Shown here: in pieces, positions 2,945 through 41,449 of the stretch | Layout of the letters: each line of letters opens with the position of its first letter | How positions within the stretch are numbered: position 1 is the first letter of the stretch | NCBI RefSeq assembly: GCF_000284095.1 | Contig: NC_017068.1 | Location: 1,736,001-1,800,000 of the forward strand | DNA from: Selenomonas ruminantium subsp. lactilytica TAM6421 | GTDB taxonomy: Bacteria; Bacillota; Negativicutes; Selenomonadales; Selenomonadaceae | Reading direction: 5' to 3' | DNA length: 64,000 bases | The notes under the pieces: model-generated | Databases searched by the model: none | The model's input: only the letters and a program-made list of their open reading frames with translations | Told to the model about the DNA's origin: nothing | Made by a program: the position numbers and the translations under genes

Positions 2945-3133
2945 TTTACCTCCTTACTACGATATTCGGACTCTTTTTTCGTTCTAATACGAAACTCGTT
3001 GTTCATGGCTATAATATAATACGGGTCTCGTAATATGTCAACTGATTTTTTCGTATTTCTACGGATTTATCTATTTTATATTTACGGATTTTCGTAGAAA
3101 TGTTATAATGAAGCTATGAAAGAAGGCGATAAA
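2945..3133. promoter_or_regulatory. Divergent prophage switch promoters and operators
   Basis: Leftward: TTGACA, a 17-nt spacer and TATATT drive the Cro-like gene. Rightward: TATAAT at 3104-3109 drives the repressor. Candidate operators with TACG/CGTA half-sites are TACGAGACCCGTA between the leftward -35 and -10, and TACGGATTTTCGTA at about 3083-3096. A perfect 9-bp dyad, ATTTCTACG at about 3053 and CGTAGAAAT at about 3093, spans the rightward promoter. Several further TACG-like half-sites are scattered here. Binding by the neighbouring repressor is inferred. Confidence 0.6.
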
Positions 3134-3958
3134 ATGATGGCCCCAAGCGAAAAAATACAGATATGTTTAGATATGAAAAATTTAAAGCGGAAAGATTTGG
3201 CCACAGCTGCAAACATGCCTGCGTCTACTATTTCTGACTTTCTAAACGGCAAGACCACAAAATTGGACATAACAAAAGCCCAGAGCATTGCAAACACTCT
3301 GGGCTGTACACTCGATTATTTAGTTGGCGACGATACTATTGGCGTTGATATTAGCACGGCACTCAAGGCCGAGCGTGAAGAACACGGAGAAACCACTGAC
3401 ATCGTTTCCTTGAATACAAAAATCCCCGAAGCACTTATTATGAAATACGAACACGGAGATGAGCCTGTCAGCTTTTTCCTCTTTGGCAAGCTGTGCGAAC
3501 ACTACGACCTGTCCGTATGGGACTTTCTGCAGAAGTACGACTTCTACGATGAATACATCCCGCCTCATTTCAATGGTGATGCTGGCGCCTACGAAGCCTT
3601 TAAGAAGGCCGAGCGCGAGGATGCGCTCAAATCATCCGCCGGCTACCCGGAACTTAGGGATATTGTAGAAAAAGGAATGTATGTAGTTAATGGCCAGCCT
3701 GCGAGAAGGTCTTTTTATCGTGACCTCCATTTAGATGTCGAGCGGATTTATATGCATCCTTATGCAGTTTGGGCGCCGAACGAGAACATCAAGGGCGATG
3801 AAGAAGCTGCTGTAGAGGAATTTGTTTCTGTGACAAAACAATACGCCACTGATGCGCAAGTCGCAAATCTGGAACATGCGCTCGCAAATGCCAAAAACCT
3901 AGATGAACGCGTTAAAACGGCTATGGCCTATTATTATGAAATCGTTATAGACAGATAG
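3134..3958 (+). CDS. Prophage CI-like repressor, XRE family
   Basis: The N-terminal ~65 residues are a clear XRE helix-turn-helix (KDLATAANMPASTISDFLNGKT, then AQSIANTLGCTLDYLVGDD). The rest (about residues 75-274) has no LexA/S24 peptidase motif; it contains a second region resembling a degenerate HTH (ALIMKYEHGDEPVSFFLFGKLCEHY) and a charged C-terminus. A start at 3134 is chosen because AGAAGGCG lies just upstream; an earlier in-frame ATG at 3116 lies at the predicted transcription start. It diverges from the Cro-like gene and is followed by the accessory genes. Induction by RecA-driven self-cleavage looks unlikely without an S24 domain. Confidence 0.75.
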   Translation: MMAPSEKIQICLDMKNLKRKDLATAANMPASTISDFLNGKTTKLDITKAQSIANTLGCTLDYLVGDDTIGVDISTALKAEREEHGETTDIVSLNTKIPEALIMKYEHGDEPVSFFLFGKLCEHYDLSVWDFLQKYDFYDEYIPPHFNGDAGAYEAFKKAEREDALKSSAGYPELRDIVEKGMYVVNGQPARRSFYRDLHLDVERIYMHPYAVWAPNENIKGDEEAAVEEFVSVTKQYATDAQVANLEHALANAKNLDERVKTAMAYYYEIVIDR

Positions 3959-4077
3959 TGCCCCCGGTTATCCTCCCTAATTCAGCAAAACTACCAAAAT
4001 GGTACTTTTGAACCTCCACGACATCGACTACCGCTTGATGGAGCAGTTCCATATAGAGCTGAAATGGGCATAACAAA

Positions 4078-4118: not shown

Positions 4119-4832
4119 TTGGCTACCATTCAGGATCATATACGGTTATCAACAAATACGTACCCAATTTTCGAAATGGCGGAAACTATCCAGCGCATCT
4201 ACAATCCGCCGGCACTAAAGGCATTTCAGAACGCCATTCAGATACCCTGCGCTTCACCGGCTATGCAAACTACTGCGATTACAGCTCAGCTTACGCAGGC
4301 GCAGGCTATAACGGCAGCGGCATTCCACCCCGCTATTGAGGCTGTTGCAATGTACCAACAACCATATATGTCTATGGCTGCGGCAATGACTGAATATCAA
4401 AGAACGCTGGCACATATTTCCAGAATCCCCGAGCTGATGAAGATTCAAAATACAATTCTCCAATTAGAACATTTCATCCCAGCCGTTATAATGCCTCCTG
4501 CACTATCAAATGTATCAACACTGCTCCCTGCTTTAGAATATCTTCACACTGAACAGCCGGATTCTTATCAACAGATTGATACCATTTTGTCCGTTGAAAT
4601 GGATAAAGATACTCCTATTGAGCAATACATTCAAAACCTGTTGTTGAAGATTAAAGACACCACTACTGCTAGTATATCTGATTTACCACAATATCTGTTT
4701 GGATTAGCACAATCTTTAGATTTAGTCTCACCTTTCGTTGATGAGCCCGCGAGAACCAGTATCGACCAGTTAAATTCACTTCTTATTGTACTGGCGTATG
4801 TAATTCTTCAAAACATCCCAAAAAGCAAGTAA
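4119..4832 (+). CDS. Uncharacterised prophage cargo protein with hydrophobic C-terminus
   Basis: I do not recognise this 237-residue protein. It begins at a TTG codon directly after the leader repeat. The first half is rich in Ala, Ile, Gln and Met (AITAQLTQAQAITAAAFHPA, then AVAMYQQPYMSMAAAMTEYQ), suggesting long amphipathic helices. The last 20 residues contain SLLIVLAYVILQNI, a possible membrane segment. The 3' end overlaps, in antisense, a small membrane-protein gene by 57 bp. As a single cargo gene in the lysogen-expressed part of a prophage, it might be a fitness or exclusion factor, but nothing in the sequence proves it. Confidence 0.5.
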   Translation: MATIQDHIRLSTNTYPIFEMAETIQRIYNPPALKAFQNAIQIPCASPAMQTTAITAQLTQAQAITAAAFHPAIEAVAMYQQPYMSMAAAMTEYQRTLAHISRIPELMKIQNTILQLEHFIPAVIMPPALSNVSTLLPALEYLHTEQPDSYQQIDTILSVEMDKDTPIEQYIQNLLLKIKDTTTASISDLPQYLFGLAQSLDLVSPFVDEPARTSIDQLNSLLIVLAYVILQNIPKSK

Positions 4833-4934
4833 TATCATCAAATAAGCTGCAGTTTTCCAAGGATTTACCGACATTCTTATAATTGTAGCAGCAGCCATAG
4901 CTACTATGACAATATGGATTATAAGCTTGTACAT
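4776..4934 (-). CDS. Small two-helix membrane protein, antisense to cargo gene
   Basis: Fifty-two residues: MYKLIIHIVIVAMAAATIIR forms a first membrane helix, and TAAYLMILLAFWDVLKNYI a second, ending in a basic tail. GTGAGGGAG lies 5-6 nt upstream of the ATG, and a promoter with a -10 of TATAAT inside a TGCAATA dyad precedes it. The last 57 bp overlap the end of the convergent gene at 4119-4832. Size and layout would suit a small toxin, holin-like or exclusion peptide, but the function is unknown. The same promoter architecture recurs upstream of the gene at 6221-6496. Confidence 0.5.
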   Translation of the reverse strand: MYKLIIHIVIVAMAAATIIRMSVNPWKTAAYLMILLAFWDVLKNYIRQYNKK

Positions 4935-4951
4935 TATTCTCCCTCACTTTC

Positions 4952-4988
4952 TGCAATATATCTAGGTATATTATACCATTTTATTGCA
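4952..4988 (-). promoter_or_regulatory. Promoter inside TGCAATA-N23-TATTGCA dyad, copy 1
   Basis: On the minus strand TGCAATA and TATTGCA stand exactly 23 bp apart with TATAAT between them. The whole element, including the following GAAAGTGAGG ribosome site, is repeated at 6516-6552 with the same 23-bp spacing. A dimeric regulator covering the -10 box is a natural reading; its identity is unknown. Confidence 0.55.
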
Positions 4989-5034
4989 AAAAGTGCTCTA
5001 CGCTTTTATGCATAAATATGAACCTCGCAATATA

Positions 5035-5081
5035 AAAAAAGCCGCCCGGATGAACAACTCGATAAAGAAAGGATAGGTATT
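5035..5081 (+). repeat. Cargo-leader repeat, copy 2
   Basis: AAAAAAAGCCGCCCGGATGA, then AACTCGATAAAGAAAGGA as ribosome site, immediately before the protease ATG at 5082. The hairpin's second arm is degraded in this copy. Confidence 0.5.
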
Positions 5082-5894
5082 ATGGATTTTCTAGATTTAC
5101 TCCCATTTACCACAACAAAAATTGAAGCCACCACGAATACTGGTCAGCTTTCTACAGGTACGGGTTTTTTCTTTGCCTTTAATTCTGACCAACAACAATC
5201 ATATATTCCCGTATTAATAACCAATCGTCATATGATTGAAAATATGCTATCCATTACTATAAAAATCACCACAAAGAAAAACAATATGCCACAGATAGGT
5301 AATTATCTCCCCTTCACCATAGAGCTTAATAAAAGGTATGTGATTATGCATCCCGATAAAGGCATCGATTTATCAATAATTATATTAGCTCCGTATATTA
5401 GTCCGCATATAAAGTCCTTATTTATACCATACCTTTCTAAGGAAAACATTGCCACAGAAAAAGAATTACAACATATTAATATTTTACATGACATAATCAT
5501 GGTTGGATATCCAGATGGAATATCAGACGAAATCAATAATATGCCTATTTTCCGAAAAGGAATTACAGCTACCAATCCATCTATTGACTATAATGGACGT
5601 CATGAATTCCTAATAGATGCATCTTGTTTCCCTGGTTCCAGCGGCTCACCAGTGATGTCATACGAAAATGGCATGGTCAAAGATGCTGATGGTAATTTTA
5701 CAATTAATTATGGCACAAAACTAATCGGAATCCAATCGAAAACTTTTCTGCATAATTCTAACGGAAAAATTGTACCAATAGAAATCCCAACACAAGTCAT
5801 ACCAGGAGTTATTACGTCTATTCCCAACAATCTTGGTATTGTTGTAAAAGCATCATGCATACTCGATTTTGAATCACTTCTTCCACCGCACTAA
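5082..5894 (+). CDS. Cytoplasmic trypsin-like serine protease
   Basis: This 270-residue chymotrypsin-fold protease has the triad in order: His50 in LITNRHMIE, Asp96 in DKGIDLSII, Ser187 in FPGSSGSPV. There is no signal peptide or membrane segment, so it should act in the cytoplasm. Such stand-alone trypsin-like domains are often found in phage-defence loci and prophage cargo, where they cleave host or phage proteins on infection. It is expressed on its own behind a cargo-leader repeat. The family call is firm; the target and the defence role are inferred. The AT-rich codon use differs from the core genes after 10989. Confidence 0.75.
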   Translation: MDFLDLLPFTTTKIEATTNTGQLSTGTGFFFAFNSDQQQSYIPVLITNRHMIENMLSITIKITTKKNNMPQIGNYLPFTIELNKRYVIMHPDKGIDLSIIILAPYISPHIKSLFIPYLSKENIATEKELQHINILHDIIMVGYPDGISDEINNMPIFRKGITATNPSIDYNGRHEFLIDASCFPGSSGSPVMSYENGMVKDADGNFTINYGTKLIGIQSKTFLHNSNGKIVPIEIPTQVIPGVITSIPNNLGIVVKASCILDFESLLPPH

Positions 5895-5947
5895 AATATA
5901 ACATCTGTAAATTTTGTATACCTCTTGAGAACAGTATAATCCATAAA

Positions 5948-5984
5948 TCAAGCCCCCACGCTCGATAAGGAAAGGAATGATGCT
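5948..5984 (+). repeat. Cargo-leader repeat, copy 3 (degenerate)
   Basis: AAGCCCCCACGCTCGATAAG followed by GAAAGGAATGATGCT before the ATG at 5985. It retains the CTCGATAA.GAAAGGA part of copy 2 but only a decayed GCCGCCC core. Confidence 0.4.
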
Positions 5985-6134
5985 ATGAATTTTAGCAAGA
6001 ACCATTTGCGCGATAAAGCAAACAGCGCAGATTTTAGGCAGTTTCGTCGATCCGTATTCCGCGAATACGCCAGTTTCCTAAAAGAAAAGATACAGCACAA
6101 TTATGAGTGGTCAGTGAAGTTCATCCTTCATTAG
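5985..6134 (+). CDS. Short basic ORF, possibly the 5' part of a frameshifted gene
   Basis: Forty-nine residues beginning MNFSKNHLRDKANSADFRQF, with a good AAGGAAAGGA ribosome site and a cargo-leader upstream. The end overlaps another open frame (6107-6292) whose protein would continue plausibly with EVHPSLEAPQDVKAPLDSEI. Read together through one frameshift near 6110-6120 they would give a single protein of about 100 residues. Either this is a real 49-residue product or the first part of a broken gene; I cannot decide from one sequence. Function unknown. Confidence 0.4.
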   Translation: MNFSKNHLRDKANSADFRQFRRSVFREYASFLKEKIQHNYEWSVKFILH

Positions 6135-6292
6135 AAGCGCCACAAGACGTAAAAGCACCCCTCGATAGTGAAATTAAAGGATTCATAAAGGCTACTAAGG
6201 ATATCAAATTGCTATCTTCCTCATCTGAAGAACCTTCTACGGACAATATCTCTGACGATACGCCCACAAATGGCAATCCTACCGAAGAATGA
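6107..6292 (+). pseudogene. Possible 3' part of the frameshifted gene at 5985
   Basis: An open frame of 61 codons from a GTG with no ribosome site of its own. The sequence is hydrophilic and acidic at its end (SSSSEEPSTDNISDD), as in disordered tails. The lack of a start signal and its position directly after the 49-residue ORF suggest it was the C-terminal part of that protein. It overlaps the convergent minus-strand gene by 72 bp, like the other cargo/antisense pairs here. Confidence 0.3.
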
Positions 6293-6496
6293 TTTTGCTT
6301 CGTCATTCTCCGCTTTGAGCTGAACCATCTCGAAAAATTCCAAATCCGTCTCAAAACGTTCCAACATATATTTGAGGAAATCGTTATCTATAGGCTTTTC
6401 CTCCATCGCCCTTATTTGCTGATGCTGAACTTTTACGCACGATACGATTTCCTTTTCATGGAGTGCCAGCAGGAATGAATTGAGAAACTTCATCAT
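6221..6496 (-). CDS. Uncharacterised 91-residue protein, antisense to cargo ORF
   Basis: Starts MMKFLNSFLLALHEKEIVSC; the ATG at 6496 follows GTGAGGCGG with good spacing. The protein looks helical and charged (IDNDFLKYMLERFETDLEFF, then LKAENDEAKSFF) and ends in a very basic tail (IVRDIVRRRFFR). No known family is recognised. It is driven by a copy of the TGCAATA dyad promoter that also precedes the small membrane gene at 4776-4934, so the two are probably co-regulated. The basic tail could bind nucleic acid; that is a guess. Confidence 0.5.
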   Translation of the reverse strand: MMKFLNSFLLALHEKEIVSCVKVQHQQIRAMEEKPIDNDFLKYMLERFETDLEFFEMVQLKAENDEAKSFFGRIAICGRIVRDIVRRRFFR

Positions 6497-6515
6497 GTTC
6501 GACCGCCTCACTTTC

Positions 6516-6552
6516 TGCAATATTATCACCTATATTATACTATTTTATTGCA
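6516..6552 (-). promoter_or_regulatory. Promoter inside TGCAATA-N23-TATTGCA dyad, copy 2
   Basis: Same layout as copy 1: dyad arms 23 bp apart with TATAAT between, then a GAAAGTGAGG-type ribosome site. The interior bases differ moderately from copy 1 while arms and spacing are exact, which argues for selection on the dyad. Confidence 0.55.
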
Positions 6553-6566
6553 AAAATATCACAAAT

Positions 6567-6606
6567 AAGCCGCCCGGATAGATGACATACGAAAGGACTG
6601 ATATCA
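6567..6606 (+). repeat. Cargo-leader repeat, copy 4
   Basis: AAGCCGCCCGGATAGATGAC followed by ATACGAAAGGACTGATATCA before the ATG at 6607. The GCCGCCCGGAT core is intact; the pairing arm is lost. Confidence 0.5.
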
Positions 6607-6822
6607 ATGATTAAGAAAATAGCGCTGGCAACACTGACCGCAGTATGCCTCTCCATGGCAACTCCTGCCCTAGCTTCTGACTATCTGGCGAATCCGCGCT
6701 CTATGAAATTCCATTACGCATCCTGCCGGACCATCAAGCATCCCGAGAACTTTATCCCGTACAGTTCCCGTGATGAAGCCATTACAGATGGTTATGTCAG
6801 CTGTGGAGTATGTAAACCATAA
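6607..6822 (+). CDS. Secreted Ada-like zinc-binding mini-protein, paralog 1
   Basis: Seventy-one residues. Residues 1-23 form a signal peptide (KKIALATLTAVCLSMATPALA, cut after ALA). The mature ~47 residues fit the Ada/nuclease-associated metal-binding fold: SMKFHYASCRTIKHPENF, then DEAITDGYVSCGVCKP, giving Cys, His and a C-terminal CxxC as ligands. These domains often accompany secreted nucleases; here the domain stands alone. A paralog with the same length lies at 8115-8330, on the other side of the PUA/EVE-like gene. Exported to the periplasm or outside; role unknown. Confidence 0.6.
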   Translation: MIKKIALATLTAVCLSMATPALASDYLANPRSMKFHYASCRTIKHPENFIPYSSRDEAITDGYVSCGVCKP

Positions 6823-6828
6823 AAATAA

Positions 6829-6870
6829 GCCGCCCGGATGGACGGCATGTAGAAAGGATATGTTGATATA
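6829..6870 (+). repeat. Cargo-leader repeat, copy 5
   Basis: AAGCCGCCCGGATGGACGGC followed by ATGTAGAAAGGATATG before the ATG at 6871. The GCCGCC/GGACGGC arms can form a hairpin as in copy 1. Confidence 0.55.
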
Positions 6871-7830
6871 ATGCAGTTACCCCTATTTTCTGATGAAGAA
6901 CTTCCTCAAGGCTATTGGTTTGTACGAACCGAAGGTGGAAAGTACTACCGTGAATTTAAAGAGAATGGCTATATCGCAATAAACTGGAATGACTTTGTTG
7001 ATCTTGATGAAATCACTGACCTTACCCTGAGACAATTAAAAGATAAAGTCAAAGACCATTACGAAGGCGAAAAGCGTCCTGGCGTTGCGGCTGCGCAAAT
7101 GCAAACTTTTGTTGGCACGATGCGTAAAAATGATATTGTACTTATTCCAAATGCCCGATCCAGAGAGATTTCCTTCGGTATTGTTAAGTCCGATGCCTAT
7201 ATACAGTCAAAAGATGATATTCAAGAAGGAAAATGTCCTTTCCGAAAGCGGCGAAACATAAAATGGATAAAAACGGTTGACCGCGCAAATCTGGACCCAT
7301 ATCTGTATAGCTTAATCAATACCCATCATTCTATTTCTAGCGCAAGCAAATGCAGTAACTTCATTAACAGAACATTATTTGACTTCTATGGTAATGATGA
7401 AGAGACTCATCTCATATTTAACGTTACTACTCATGAGCCTATCAAGAACTCTGAACTACGCGTTTTAATGAACAGCATCTATGGCGTAGCTGAGATATTC
7501 AATAATGCGCACCCAGAATTATCCGTAGACATGGATGATGTTATCTTTAAAGCTAGTGTTAATTCGCCAGGTCCTATCGAATGGGTAGGAAAAAAGAAGA
7601 ATATGGTTTTTGTTCTTGTACTTCTTCACTTTTTCGTTGGCGGAACGCTTGACGTCGGTCCAGTTCATTGGGAAACCAAAGGGGTTATTGGCTACGCGAT
7701 GGATGCTTACAAGGAATATAATGATAACCATCTAAAGGAAATGGAGCTAACTAAAAAGGTCCTTGAAGAAAAACTGCCAGTTCCTAAACAAGGTATCCAG
7801 GAACTACAGGCTTCCAACAAGGACCTCTAA
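6871..7830 (+). CDS. PUA/EVE-like domain protein with hydrophobic C-terminal segment
   Basis: In this 319-residue protein, residues ~14-150 resemble the PUA/EVE-type domain found at the front of many restriction and defence proteins: GYWFVRTEGGKYYREF, then GYIAINWNDFVDL, AQMQTFVGTMRKNDIVLIP and ISFGIVKSDAY. Such domains bind modified bases or nucleotides. Residues ~185-245 form a second domain, and NMVFVLVLLHFFVGGTL (about 247-263) is a likely membrane segment, followed by a charged helix. A sensor plus membrane-effector layout is an inference. It lies between the two Ada-like peptide genes and converges with a small membrane gene 6 bp downstream. Confidence 0.5.
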   Translation: MQLPLFSDEELPQGYWFVRTEGGKYYREFKENGYIAINWNDFVDLDEITDLTLRQLKDKVKDHYEGEKRPGVAAAQMQTFVGTMRKNDIVLIPNARSREISFGIVKSDAYIQSKDDIQEGKCPFRKRRNIKWIKTVDRANLDPYLYSLINTHHSISSASKCSNFINRTLFDFYGNDEETHLIFNVTTHEPIKNSELRVLMNSIYGVAEIFNNAHPELSVDMDDVIFKASVNSPGPIEWVGKKKNMVFVLVLLHFFVGGTLDVGPVHWETKGVIGYAMDAYKEYNDNHLKEMELTKKVLEEKLPVPKQGIQELQASNKDL

Positions 7831-8114: not shown

Positions 8115-8330
8115 ATGTTCAAGAAAATAGCTTTGGCCACGCTGGCCGCTGTCTGTGTATCAATAGCTACCCCTGCCCTGGCATCTGACTATCTCGGTAA
8201 TCCCAAGTCGATGAAGTTCCACTACTCCAGCTGCTCCACAATAAAGCATCCGGAAAGGTTCGTGGAGTTCAGCACCCGTGACGATGCCATTGCTGCGGGA
8301 TATGTACCGTGCAAGCGGTGCAATCCGTAA
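8115..8330 (+). CDS. Secreted Ada-like zinc-binding mini-protein, paralog 2
   Basis: A 71-residue paralog of the protein at 6607-6822: the same signal peptide design (FKKIALATLAAVCVSIATPALA) and the same mature domain (SMKFHYSSCSTIKHPERF, then DDAIAAGYVPCKRCNP). The metal ligands Cys, His and CxxC are all kept. A good AAGGAAGGA site precedes it, but the GCCGCCC leader does not; instead TTGCAATAAAA appears upstream. Duplication followed by moderate divergence, with ligands conserved, suggests both copies work. Confidence 0.6.
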   Translation: MFKKIALATLAAVCVSIATPALASDYLGNPKSMKFHYSSCSTIKHPERFVEFSTRDDAIAAGYVPCKRCNP

Positions 8331-8428: not shown

Positions 8429-8505
8429 CAAGAAGAGAGTGCTGATGTCTCCTACGGGAGCTCGGCGCGGGAATAGTCCTCTCCATTATTGGAGGGGGCT
8501 ATTTT
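8429..8505 (+). ncRNA. Structured small RNA upstream of Abi gene (abiF-RNA-like)
   Basis: A ~77-nt RNA with its own promoter and terminator. Hairpin 1 (8439-8468) pairs GTGCTGA with TCGGCGC, has a small internal loop, then CTCC-TACG-GGAG with a stable UACG tetraloop. Hairpin 2 (8472-8503) is the terminator. The known abiF RNA motif is a structured RNA found beside abiF-type genes, and such RNAs have been proposed as antitoxins; position and size fit, but I have not aligned it to that model. It would be made in excess over the toxin mRNA because most transcripts should stop at the terminator. Confidence 0.65.
8472..8505 (+). terminator. Leaky terminator that also buries the Abi ribosome site
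   Basis: A 14-bp stem (8472-8485 with 8490-8503, G-U pairs allowed) with a TTAT loop, followed by a T-rich tail. The 3' arm contains GGAGGGGG, the only ribosome site for the ATG at 8510. The hairpin can therefore both stop transcription and block translation. Confidence 0.75.
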
Positions 8506-8509
8506 TGTT

Positions 8510-9475
8510 ATGACAACACCCGCAAAGCCATTCCGAACTCTATCGGAACAGATTGAACTACTGAAGAGCCGTGATTTAATCATTACGGACGATGAGCAGG
8601 CCAAAAAACTTCTTCTCAGCAACAACTATTACAACATCATCAATGGGTATAGCAAGTTTTTCCCGACCAATCAGGATCACTATACAAATGGAACATCCCT
8701 TGATGAGGTAATCCGTTTATACACCTTTGATGTGGAGCTAAAGCAGGCCTTTTTCAAAGCAGTCCTTGCTGTTGAGGCACACTTAAAAGCCATTTTTGCC
8801 TACCATTTTGCAGAAGCATATCATCATATACGTTATTCGTATCTTGATATCGCCTGTTATGATCAGAATCGCGTTCTGGATGCGGTTCAAACTATCCACA
8901 AGTTATCAGGCATAATCAATCATCAAAATAAATTCTCCGACTCCAGTATCCATCATTATGTGCATGCCTATGGCAATGTACCTATATGGGTATTGGTAAA
9001 CTATATAGACTTTGGTGACCTTCGGTACATGATTATAAATTCTAAAAAACCTATCCAAAATAAGGTTTCTCGTGATATTTTAGATTTTACAAAGCAAAAT
9101 CTCCCCCACATCAGCTTATTCCCACCCGAAAATATGCTTGACCTGTTGGCCAACATAAACGAACTTCGCAATGTTTGCGCACACAATAACCGTATGATTG
9201 GCTTTAAGTGCCGTCGTGACAGCAGGTACTGGCCTGAATTACATGACCGTTATAATTTAGCACAACGCAGTGAACGCCGGGATGTATATTCTGTCTATGT
9301 TTCCTTGCAATGCTTCTTGAGTGAAACTGAATTTTCTTGGCTCCATAACACTATTCGAAAAAGAATGCGAACTCTTAGCAACGGTCTTCAATCCATTGAT
9401 ACGAATCACATTCTAAGGTTATTGGGATTTCCCGATGACTGGCATTTGACAGCTCAAATACGGCATCAAAAATAA
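8510..9475 (+). CDS. Abi_2 family abortive-infection HEPN protein (AbiD/AbiF type)
   Basis: A 321-residue member of the Abi_2 (AbiD/AbiF) family: the opening PFRTLSEQIELLKSRDLII, then LLLSNNYYNIINGYSKFF, DVELKQAFFKAVLAVEAHLK and the HEPN RNase motif Arg220-x4-His225 in NELRNVCAHNNR are all intact. These proteins are thought to cut RNA and stop growth on phage infection. The ATG at 8510 is chosen because it follows GGAGGGGG; an earlier frame opening at 8489 lies inside the hairpin. Translation and transcription are gated by the RNA upstream. It is the last cargo gene before the recombinase. Confidence 0.88.
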   Translation: MTTPAKPFRTLSEQIELLKSRDLIITDDEQAKKLLLSNNYYNIINGYSKFFPTNQDHYTNGTSLDEVIRLYTFDVELKQAFFKAVLAVEAHLKAIFAYHFAEAYHHIRYSYLDIACYDQNRVLDAVQTIHKLSGIINHQNKFSDSSIHHYVHAYGNVPIWVLVNYIDFGDLRYMIINSKKPIQNKVSRDILDFTKQNLPHISLFPPENMLDLLANINELRNVCAHNNRMIGFKCRRDSRYWPELHDRYNLAQRSERRDVYSVYVSLQCFLSETEFSWLHNTIRKRMRTLSNGLQSIDTNHILRLLGFPDDWHLTAQIRHQK

Positions 9476-9503: not shown

Positions 9504-9613
9504 CGGCCTGGATGCAATCAGTCTGAGAGAGACTAATCACACTACCCAAAGTAGATTATACCACCTCTCAGGCTTGTTTGCCAAACGCAAATAAACTAGA
9601 GAGGTGTTTTATT

Positions 9614-10985
9614 ATGAAAAAAGCAGCGCTTTATATCCGTGTATCCACCGAGGAACAGGCCAAGCATGGCTTCTCCCTATCTGAACAGCAGCATGATCTG
9701 GAGCAGTACGCCCTTGCACACCATTATACTGTCGTTGGCGTGTACGCCGATGAAGGCAACACCGCCCGCAAAGCACTCTCCCGCCGTAAGGAGCTCCAGC
9801 GACTCCTTGACGATGTGCGGGCAGACAATCCTGCTGAAGTGCTTGGACCGCTGGTTCCGCAATGTGCGGGATTATTACAAGGTGCAGGACGTTCTCGACC
9901 AGTACGGCGTAAACTGGGAATGCACGCAGGAGGACTACAATACCACCACGACCAATGGGCGGCTGATGCTGAACCTCAAACTCTCCATCGCCCAGAATGA
10001 ATCCGACCAGACCAGCGACCGCATCAAGTATGTCAACGAAGGAAAGCATCGCCGCAAGGAGGAAACCACCGGCAAGCATCCATTCGGCTATGAAATCAAG
10101 GATAAGCATCTGGTGGTCATCGAAAAGGAACGGCCTATAGTCGAGTTCATCTTCCAGCAAATACTGGCGGGGTACGCCACCCACTCCATTTTCCGCAAGA
10201 TACTCGATAAGTTTGGCATATCCATTGACGCCCGCCGTGTTTGGCGTATTTTGCGTAATCCAACGTATAAGGGAGTTCGCTACGGCATCCCCGACTACTG
10301 CCCGGCCATTATCCCTCCAGAGCAGTTTGATCGCGTACAGACAATTCTCTCCCGCAATCAGCAGCCAAGACGATCAGGAAGAATTTATCTGTTCTCCGGC
10401 AAAGTGGTCTGCCCATCCTGTGGTACTATCATGGTCGCACATCGAGGTTACGTCAACAAGAAAAAAAATAGCTATCAACAAACCTACATCTGTGGCAATC
10501 GCTATATCACAGGTAAGCCGCATACCGCAGGGGGATGCTTGTTCGGTGGCGGTATCAGTGAGAACGTAATCGAAAAATTCCTGCTGAATAACATCCGTCC
10601 GCTATTAGAATCATACCTCATTCATTTTGACCAGCAAAACAAGCATGTTCCAGAAAAGGATAAAATAAAATCCATCAAGACAAAGCTTTCCCGATTGAAA
10701 GACCTCTACCTTGATGGATTGATTGATAAAGATAGTTATAAAGTTGATTATGAGCGACTGCAAAAAGAGCTTGCCCAGGCTGCCTATGCAGCAGCCAACC
10801 AAAAGACCATATCACCGCTGGTTGATAAAATCATGGATGACGATGATTTCGTGAATACCTATCTCACTCTGCCACGCGAGCAGAAAAGAGAACTTTGGCA
10901 AAGCCTTATCCAGCGCATTGAGCTGGGCCGCCGCCCGGAAGAACGTGGAAAATCCTATAAGGATATCCGCATATTCTTCTACTGA
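9614..10985 (+). pseudogene. Large serine recombinase (prophage integrase), frameshifted
   Basis: The N-terminal resolvase domain (ALYIRVSTEEQAKHG, with the catalytic Ser) is in one frame to about 9835; the remainder (DRWFRNVRDYYKVQD, QNESDQTSDRIKYVNEGK, a recombinase domain, a zinc ribbon VCPSCGTIMV with a later YICGN, and a coiled coil) is in another. At the junction, family members normally have several residues between the RAD and ILxxxLDRWFR segments that are missing here, so about 10-14 bases were probably deleted. It should integrate and excise the prophage; in this state it is likely dead. The 3' end is 3 bp from the pyrE stop. Confidence 0.85.
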
Positions 10986-41219: not shown

Positions 41220-41449
41220 CCAATAGCTGCTACGGTGATTGTCAAACAGGCAGTTCTCCTGGCTCGGTTCATCGCTCCTCTGCGCCTTCCCAAAGGCTTA
41301 TGCCCCCAGTGACTTAACTATGCAGATTCGCTCCCCTTACAGTGGCGGGACCGCGCTGGCCTATACCAGCTTCTCTTTTCAGCAGCCGGATGTGCGCCGG
41401 CTTGCACCTGTTCCTTCCTATGGAATTAGCTATAGTGAAATAACTCACA
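41220..41449 (-). promoter_or_regulatory. Cobalamin riboswitch
   Basis: On the minus strand, hallmark elements follow in order: AACAGGTGCAAGCCGG near 41413, CGGTCCCGCCACTGTAAGGG near 41350, AAGTCACTGGGGGCATAAGC, GGGAAGGCGCAGAGGAGCGA, and the B12 box GAGCCAGGAGAACTGCCTG ending near 41245. A -10 box TATAAT at 41461-41456 places the 5' end near 41449. It controls cbiK through the terminator at 41127-41165. Confidence 0.93.

Follow-up and report, generated by a model that had tools for sequence, protein, structure and literature searches.

The window analysed here, 64,000 nucleotides (nt) of Selenomonas ruminantium subsp. lactilytica TAM6421 (GCF_000284095.1, contig NC_017068.1, positions 1,736,001 to 1,800,000 of the forward strand), includes the lysogeny region of a prophage, in which genes of candidate defence families lie between a CI-type repressor and a serine recombinase (Table 1). 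Within this region, on the minus strand, are two copies of a 51-nt unit comprising a left arm, a -10 element, a right arm and a leader with the start of a ribosome-binding site (RBS). Each copy holds the inverted repeat TGCAATA-N23-TATTGCA (the dyad), a pattern with these two matches in the window and, with spacers of 20-26 allowed, the same two in the complete 3.63-Mb genome. As read from the sequence, a minus-strand TATAAT lies inside both dyads, and open reading frames (ORFs) of 52 and 91 codons follow site a and site b, respectively. Both dyads belong to a single direct repeat (D3), whose copies differ mainly between the -10 and the right arm. An earlier sequence-only reading had taken the pair as a duplicated promoter leading into different small genes, with a regulator dimer, for which the prophage repressor was a candidate, gripping both sides of the -10; the first part of that interpretation is upheld by the results given here and the second is not.

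The unit recurs at 16 sites in 11 genomes from two genera. Eleven copies with at most three mismatches are found in eight of the 22 genomes of the genus, and a profile (R1) built from these genus copies and run over 189 genomes of the family, 31 of which match at E<=0.01, many by chance, added weaker copies in G013, G019 and G015 and a second copy in G152 (genomes are numbered, G000 being that of the window, and letters distinguish sites within one genome; the G152 locus is described from the same region in stretch L048). The window's own genome proved to have a third copy, beside a paralogue of c1, the gene that converges on site a. Over the 16 sites, TATAAT retains 95 of 96 letters, the right arm 108 of 112 (exact at 12 sites), the sequence GAAAGTGAGG after the right arm 147 of 160 (exact at 10) and the left arm TGCAATA 97 of 112 (exact at 10). 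The -10 and the right arm with the leader and RBS are more constant than the left arm, which contradicts the proposal that the arms are conserved above the interior; interior bases as conserved as the arms had been named beforehand as the result that would speak against a regulator site, and this is what the 16 sites have. Moreover, at G150a, G150b, G155 and G157b one arm has changed with no compensating change in the other, which argues against an operator across the -10. Spacers of 22 occur at G013 and G152b. At nine loci with c1, the left arm is exact in six, both arms are exact in five and the leader keeps 89 of 90 letters, although these loci favour the unit, since eight were found via the promoter and were used as rows in the search alignment; c1 itself led to just one of the nine, the third own copy. 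The left arm is absent at two of the nine, G015 and the third own copy.

In the wider genome contigs TGCAATAAARTRGTATAATNTR was found in 18 stretches, of which seven, from Selenomonas, carry the leader and the other 11 do not, the search being blind to copies without the left arm. Three viral contigs carry the unit and three further ones carry TTTTTGCAATAAANTNGTATAAT without the leader. The interval 4600-6900 of the window has no phage match and two weak plasmid matches, both inside the protease gene. Nine other dyads of the family with spacers of 20-24 were considered and set aside, as they share no context beyond that of orthologues and several lie inside genes. A literature search of open-licence papers with a few terms found no paper on this Selenomonas unit.

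With regard to the promoter itself, TGGTATAAT forms an extended -10 at most sites and is followed by the short leader TTGCAGAAAGTGAGG with its RBS. The 14-mer TTGCAGAAAGTGAG, which was chosen from these same sites, occurs 12 times in the 189 family genomes, 11 of the occurrences being these leaders, against three for the reversed control. If transcription starts at the usual distance from the -10, the right arm would fall within the 5' leader, immediately before the RBS. Two sites, G155 and G157b, show no trace of a small gene, and both lack the GAGG of the RBS, which is retained ahead of the frameshifted small gene of G150b. The same conserved unit and leader lead into different genes at different sites, which supports the earlier view of a duplicated promoter. 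A generic scan for promoters between 3900 and 9700 lends no support, as it found 17 sites against 18.7 expected, with site b listed and site a not. Plus-strand genes are preceded at 4075, 5036, 6564 and 6818 of the window by repeats of the AAGCCGCCC...GGACGGC type, some of which form hairpins with T-runs on the minus strand.

What the unit faces is the 3' end of another gene. A convergent gene of at least 90 codons ends 7-120 nt past the leader at 13 of the 16 sites, and 327-608 nt past it at G157a, G152b and G000b. Nine sites have c1 as this partner and two (G019 and G152b) a c1-like gene; elsewhere it is a DUF7946 protein at G150a, a ThsB-like TIR protein at G155, an Abi-alpha protein at G157b, a 102-aa protein without a match at G152a and, farthest away, the PDC-S45 gene behind site b. 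The small proteins encoded tail to tail with c1 have 51-63 residues and are usually hydrophobic; among 10 distinct ones, six have two hydrophobic segments, two have one and two have none. The two frames overlap by 50-87 nt, in two phases, in 10 of 11 measurable pairs (with G176 counted, the frameshifted G150b left out and the inner small gene used for G157a), the exception being G152b, where the pair is 341 nt apart. In class II the small genes have 11 synonymous against seven non-synonymous codon changes.

One possibility raised by this arrangement is antisense-type control, in which the promoter's transcript would enter the 3' end of the convergent gene and limit it, or the reverse. Type I toxin-antitoxin pairs can have a 3' overlap. 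The tail-to-tail overlap and the hydrophobic small proteins would suit such control, as would G155 and G157b, which lack a small ORF and have the partner's stop codon 7 and 10 nt away from the promoter. However, the RBS is retained at most sites with a small ORF, and the partner encodes a protein; we consider antisense control unlikely.

The protein c1, which carries a hydrophobic segment in its C-terminal part, matched no family in Pfam, PHROGs, NCBIfam or PADLOC above cut-off. Its predicted structure has a mean predicted local distance difference test (pLDDT) score of 63, with residues 101-237 all helical at 55-87 (in blocks of ten); the model matched no fold in PDB or BFVD at E<=0.001, and no solved relative was found by sequence at E<=1. 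The nine c1 loci come from the 189-genome search, and a search with the c1 rows over 380 genomes of the class found 11, all within this family.

Comparison of the c1 loci reveals a pattern of exchange. Site a (G000a) and G160 are 94% identical over positions 351-728 and 1223-1310 of the excised segment, the part between giving no match, and against G160, G157a and G150b the 5' part of c1 and the promoter are 82-95% identical on either side of a gap without a blastn match. The C-terminal half of c1 and the small gene are thus exchanged as a block between a conserved c1 5' part and the promoter. At all six loci compared (G000a, G015, G144, G157a, G000c and G013) the c1 C-terminal part and the small gene agree in class, with within-class z of 26-97 for c1 and 11.5-34 for the small proteins, and between-class values of up to 12.9 and 3.6; the near-copies G159 and G160 and the frameshifted G150b agree by sight. 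At G157a two tandem small genes follow one promoter; the inner one, beside c1, matches the class of that c1, and the outer one adjoins a stretch whose match to the class III locus G150b starts inside the c1 end and continues from there.

Such a pattern could indicate a toxin/immunity pair, in which the small protein would neutralise the variable C-terminal part of c1. The conserved 5' part with a variable 3' part that is exchanged together with the neighbour, the agreement in class at the six compared loci and the extra tandem small gene of G157a are all consistent with this. Against it, G019 breaks the class pattern, scans with Pfam and NCBIfam found no secretion domain or known toxin domain, and a sensor paired with a membrane effector would fit as well; a toxin/immunity pair in the strict sense is, in our view, doubtful. 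More broadly, the c1/small pair is probably a membrane-acting module, of an exclusion or toxin/immunity-like kind.

The setting of the unit is that of a prophage. A repressor gene, an integrase gene or both were found in the flanks examined at 14 of the 16 sites and none was seen for G013 and G157b; Pfam confirms nine of 10 representative repressor or integrase proteins, the recombinase of G015 being assigned by eye. At this fixed position near repressor or integrase different cargo is found at the same place, and part of it belongs to defence families (PDC-S45, PDC-S02, AbiD, ThsB_TIR and Abi_alpha).

We favour, with some reserve, the explanation that the unit is a conserved, portable promoter and translation start which marks one end of a slot for gene exchange in the lysogeny regions of prophages of Selenomonas. 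It would be transcribed in the lysogen and, facing the 3' end of a convergent accessory gene, would usually drive a small gene that overlaps the end of that gene. Homologous recombination in the c1 5' part and in the unit would then swap the cargo as a block, because both are common to these prophages, unlike the intervening DNA; the window's pair would be two such units in one slot. The commonest cargo, c1 and the small hydrophobic protein, would act as a pair, together at the membrane, and the slot may serve defence. The sequences themselves show the common unit, the pattern of exchange, the pairing with overlap and the neighbours from defence families; that the promoter is active, that the genes are expressed in a lysogen, that recombination produced the exchange and that the slot acts against phages are inferences. 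For the c1/small pair the term defence is taken from its neighbours, since neither protein has a family match.

Several observations weigh against this explanation. By eye, there is no -35 hexamer common to the sites, and at G019 the -10 is one base nearer the left arm, yet the arms remain 23 apart. The distances to the convergent ends (13 of 16 within 120 nt) stand without a background rate. The 91-codon gene of site b and the 56-codon gene of G152a do not encode hydrophobic proteins, and G176, from a third genus, has overlapping c1-like and small genes without the leader. The last 17-29 codons of the partners overlap and therefore cannot vary freely; the class I small genes have no bias in codon position (16/16/18 changes) and seven synonymous against 26 non-synonymous codons, so that, set beside class II, coding constraint is seen in one class only. 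The c1 and small proteins match no family in the four collections named above. The c1 classes that agree at six of six loci were drawn after looking, without permutation, and are not cleanly separated (z up to 12.9 between classes against 26-97 within them), and G019 is a misfit, with a small protein closest to class II beside a c1 end closest to class I. Nor are the c1 loci independent, as G000a and G159 are near-copies, as are G144 and G160, and eight of the nine were found via the promoter. Finally, the long dyad of site a beats most shuffles.

Table 1. Positions in the window of the repeated unit, its parts and the genes around it (gene starts, from a simple gene caller, are approximate).
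Feature	Position	Strand	Remarks
CI-type repressor	3116..3958	+	Pfam HTH_3; PHROG transcriptional regulator/repressor
c1 gene, 237 aa	4119..4832	+	start taken as TTG; convergent; 57 nt at its end shared with the 52-codon gene
52-codon gene, small hydrophobic protein (class I)	4776..4934	-	homologue beside c1 in G015
51-nt unit, copy a (left arm, -10, right arm, leader/RBS)	4942..4992	-	direct repeat D3, 86% identity
Leader TTGCAGAAAGTGAG and RBS start, copy a	4943..4956	-	includes most of the right arm
Dyad, site a	4952..4988	unassigned
-10 TATAAT, site a	4970..4975	-	TGG before (extended -10); sequence; 95/96 letters over 16 sites
Terminator-like hairpin upstream of promoter a	5039..5060	-	same strand as promoter a; 8 such found against 4.7 expected
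Trypsin-like peptidase, candidate defence PDC-S45	5082..5894	+
91-codon gene behind site b	6221..6496	-	no hydrophobic segment
51-nt unit, copy b	6506..6556	-	direct repeat D3
Leader TTGCAGAAAGTGAG, copy b	6507..6520	-
Dyad, site b	6516..6552	unassigned
-10 TATAAT, site b	6534..6539	-	sequence; generic promoter scan
Candidate defence protein PDC-S02	6871..7830	+
AbiD / Abi_2 abortive infection family	8489..9475	+
Serine recombinase (integrase-type) region	9578..10985	+	Pfam Resolvase on the open first part

How far the dyad itself departs from chance depends on the site. The exact pattern appears in none of 100 shuffles of the window, although it was chosen after being seen, and the two copies, being homologous parts of one 51-nt repeat, make dyad and spacing count as one event. 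Since TGCA is self-complementary, each seven-letter arm has only three letters of directional symmetry. When single units were shuffled with their dinucleotides kept, an inverted repeat with arms of at least seven arose in 250 of 3000 shuffles for site a and 213 of 3000 for site b, so a 7-bp dyad in one such unit is weak evidence. Longer imperfect arms (CACTTTTTGCAATA / TATTGCAGAAAGTG at site a, pairing at 13 of 14 positions) were equalled in three of 2000 shuffles for site a and none of 2000 for G159, against 204 of 2000 for site b and 174 of 2000 for G152a. The dyad therefore stands out in one subgroup, while those of site b and G152a, the other two units tested, are unremarkable. It appears largely incidental to the promoter and leader, and a regulatory role in the long-arm subgroup is possible; part of the regulator idea survives because of the longer dyad of site a and of a similar, conserved site in the host.

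Could the prophage repressor or the 91-residue protein bind the dyad? The repressor gene lies about 1 kb away, and half-sites with at most one mismatch are present in five of six repressor/cro intervals of other prophages, a count made without a chance control, the interval of G150 having an exact TATTGCA. The own repressor/cro interval, however, has no TGCAATA or TATTGCA even with one mismatch allowed (repeats like TACGRnnYCGTA are visible there by eye), the repressors beside the unit fall into several BLAST clusters, and the 91-residue protein, which has no Pfam match, follows one of the 16 sites. The repressor was rejected as the binder, the half-sites elsewhere being judged weak, and binding by either protein seems to us very improbable.

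A second candidate is a regulator of the host. Dyads of the form TTGCAATAAAA-...-ATATTGCAAA...TG, with arms 22 bp apart, adjoin a small gene with a weak, sub-threshold likeness to DapF and, as a rule, a divergently transcribed gene of AraC type (Pfam HTH_18, AraC_binding); the own-genome example is at L169 3926-3971 (G000:C1 about 2188925). This host dyad looks like a real operator of its own, and the prophage promoters would copy it with 23 bp, an AraC-type protein repressing by covering both sides of the -10. With a profile built from 17 host sites (R2) the host site is found in 21 of the 22 genus genomes at E<1e-9, seven of the 21 not having supplied R2 rows, and the AraC gene occurs in the same 21 genomes. 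The profile ranks the window's two sites second and third in the 3.63-Mb genome (19.1 and 17.3 bits, the next at 15.5), and outside the arms the host columns (AAA following the left arm, A preceding the right arm and A, T and G beyond it) are largely the same as in the prophage sites. However, the host site was found by searching with this very dyad, all 17 rows being picked for a dyad with at most two mismatches, so that the ranking is partly built in; R2 E-values are inflated, with 142 matches at E<=1 in 22 genomes, and G144 and G150 each have a place elsewhere that scores above the prophage site. In addition, the host spacing is 1 bp off, the host middle element TATGCTTT is not shared with the prophage sites, the AraC gene of G000, G147 and G148 lies elsewhere with no host site in the stretch upstream, and at two c1 loci the promoter is there but the left arm is not. 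In five genomes of genus g19, rplL-rpoB also gives a match about as strong, a likeness judged to be chance (five matches, three of them with their context seen). Taken together, an operator of a host regulator is an unlikely account of the prophage dyad. The g19 stretches L074, L076, L080, L081 and L083 have ATTGCAGAAAGTGAAG (one letter different in L083) after promoter-like sequence, in a ribosomal-protein/rpoB context, by eye, in L074, L080 and L083.

Some further features of the region may be recorded. The serine recombinase frame is split across two frames, and the integrase may therefore be broken in this genome; by eye, it adjoins an apparent pyrE. At 6607-6822 and 8115-8330 are related 71-codon genes with signal-peptide-like starts and 70% DNA identity over 211 nt, a gene family that recurs beside the promoter in several loci. 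Two short ORFs of 49 and 61 codons lie at 5985-6292, the former resembling the start of a 259-aa G152 gene with a PemK/MazF-like domain. At 1357-2597, IS3-type transposase genes adjoin phage tail-like genes (both by eye), and a cobalamin riboswitch at 41232-41426 (RF00174) is the sole Rfam match in the window.

The known systems that the locus most resembles are compared here. Like Rhs CT/immunity units (PMC10539506), the c1 pair has a conserved N-terminal part, an exchangeable C-terminal part with its neighbour (G019 being the misfit) and an orphan-like extra partner. Unlike them, the proteins are small, lie in a lysogeny region and have the partner on the opposite strand, and any toxicity is putative; no toxin or trafficking domain was found above cut-off in Pfam, NCBIfam or PADLOC, nor a fold at E<=0.001. 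Immunity genes transcribed opposite to the toxin gene are a feature of colicin B/M (PMC6723558), although the Selenomonas pair has no colicin family match and its reading frames overlap. RexAB and Sbash gp30/gp31 (PMC6426596) are, likewise, prophage pairs of a mostly soluble-looking protein and a membrane protein, here placed by the repressor; the c1 pair differs in being convergent and overlapping, rather than one operon, in having at most two hydrophobic segments instead of four transmembrane segments, and in having no match of c1 to DUF4747 or any other Pfam family. As with the moron ltp of TP-J34 (PMC3952083), a gene of the lysogeny module is suggested to have its own promoter and terminator, but ltp encodes a lipoprotein and in Selenomonas one promoter is common to different genes. 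In the case of BstA (PMC8585504), too, a prophage carries a defence gene close to its repressor and, in the same locus, a short cognate element, the self-immunity element aba; aba overlaps the start of its gene, whereas the Selenomonas element is a promoter at the gene's 3' side, for which an immunity role would be hypothetical.

The closest parallel is with the hotspots of P2/P4 prophages and satellites and the cI-integrase hotspot of Vibrionaceae K139-like prophages (Rousset et al. 2022, PMC9122126), which share with the present slot a variable cargo with defence families near repressor and integrase. Unlike them, the Selenomonas slot, whose role in defence is putative, has a shared 51-bp promoter/leader that faces the 3' end of the cargo; the excerpt of that paper describes no such shared unit. 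It is conceivable, at somewhat less than an even chance, that we are dealing with a new two-gene prophage system, in which c1, with a constant N-terminal part and at least three exchangeable C-terminal types, is matched by a membrane protein of 51-63 residues whose gene overlaps it tail to tail and is driven by the promoter/leader, the latter being also a recombination joint for this pair and other anti-phage genes. Prophage defence hotspots are known and it is less clear how their cargo swaps without losing expression; compared with those hotspots, a short promoter/leader such as this one could be both the expression unit and the exchange joint, and its 14-letter leader is usable as bait for further cargo in Selenomonas prophages.

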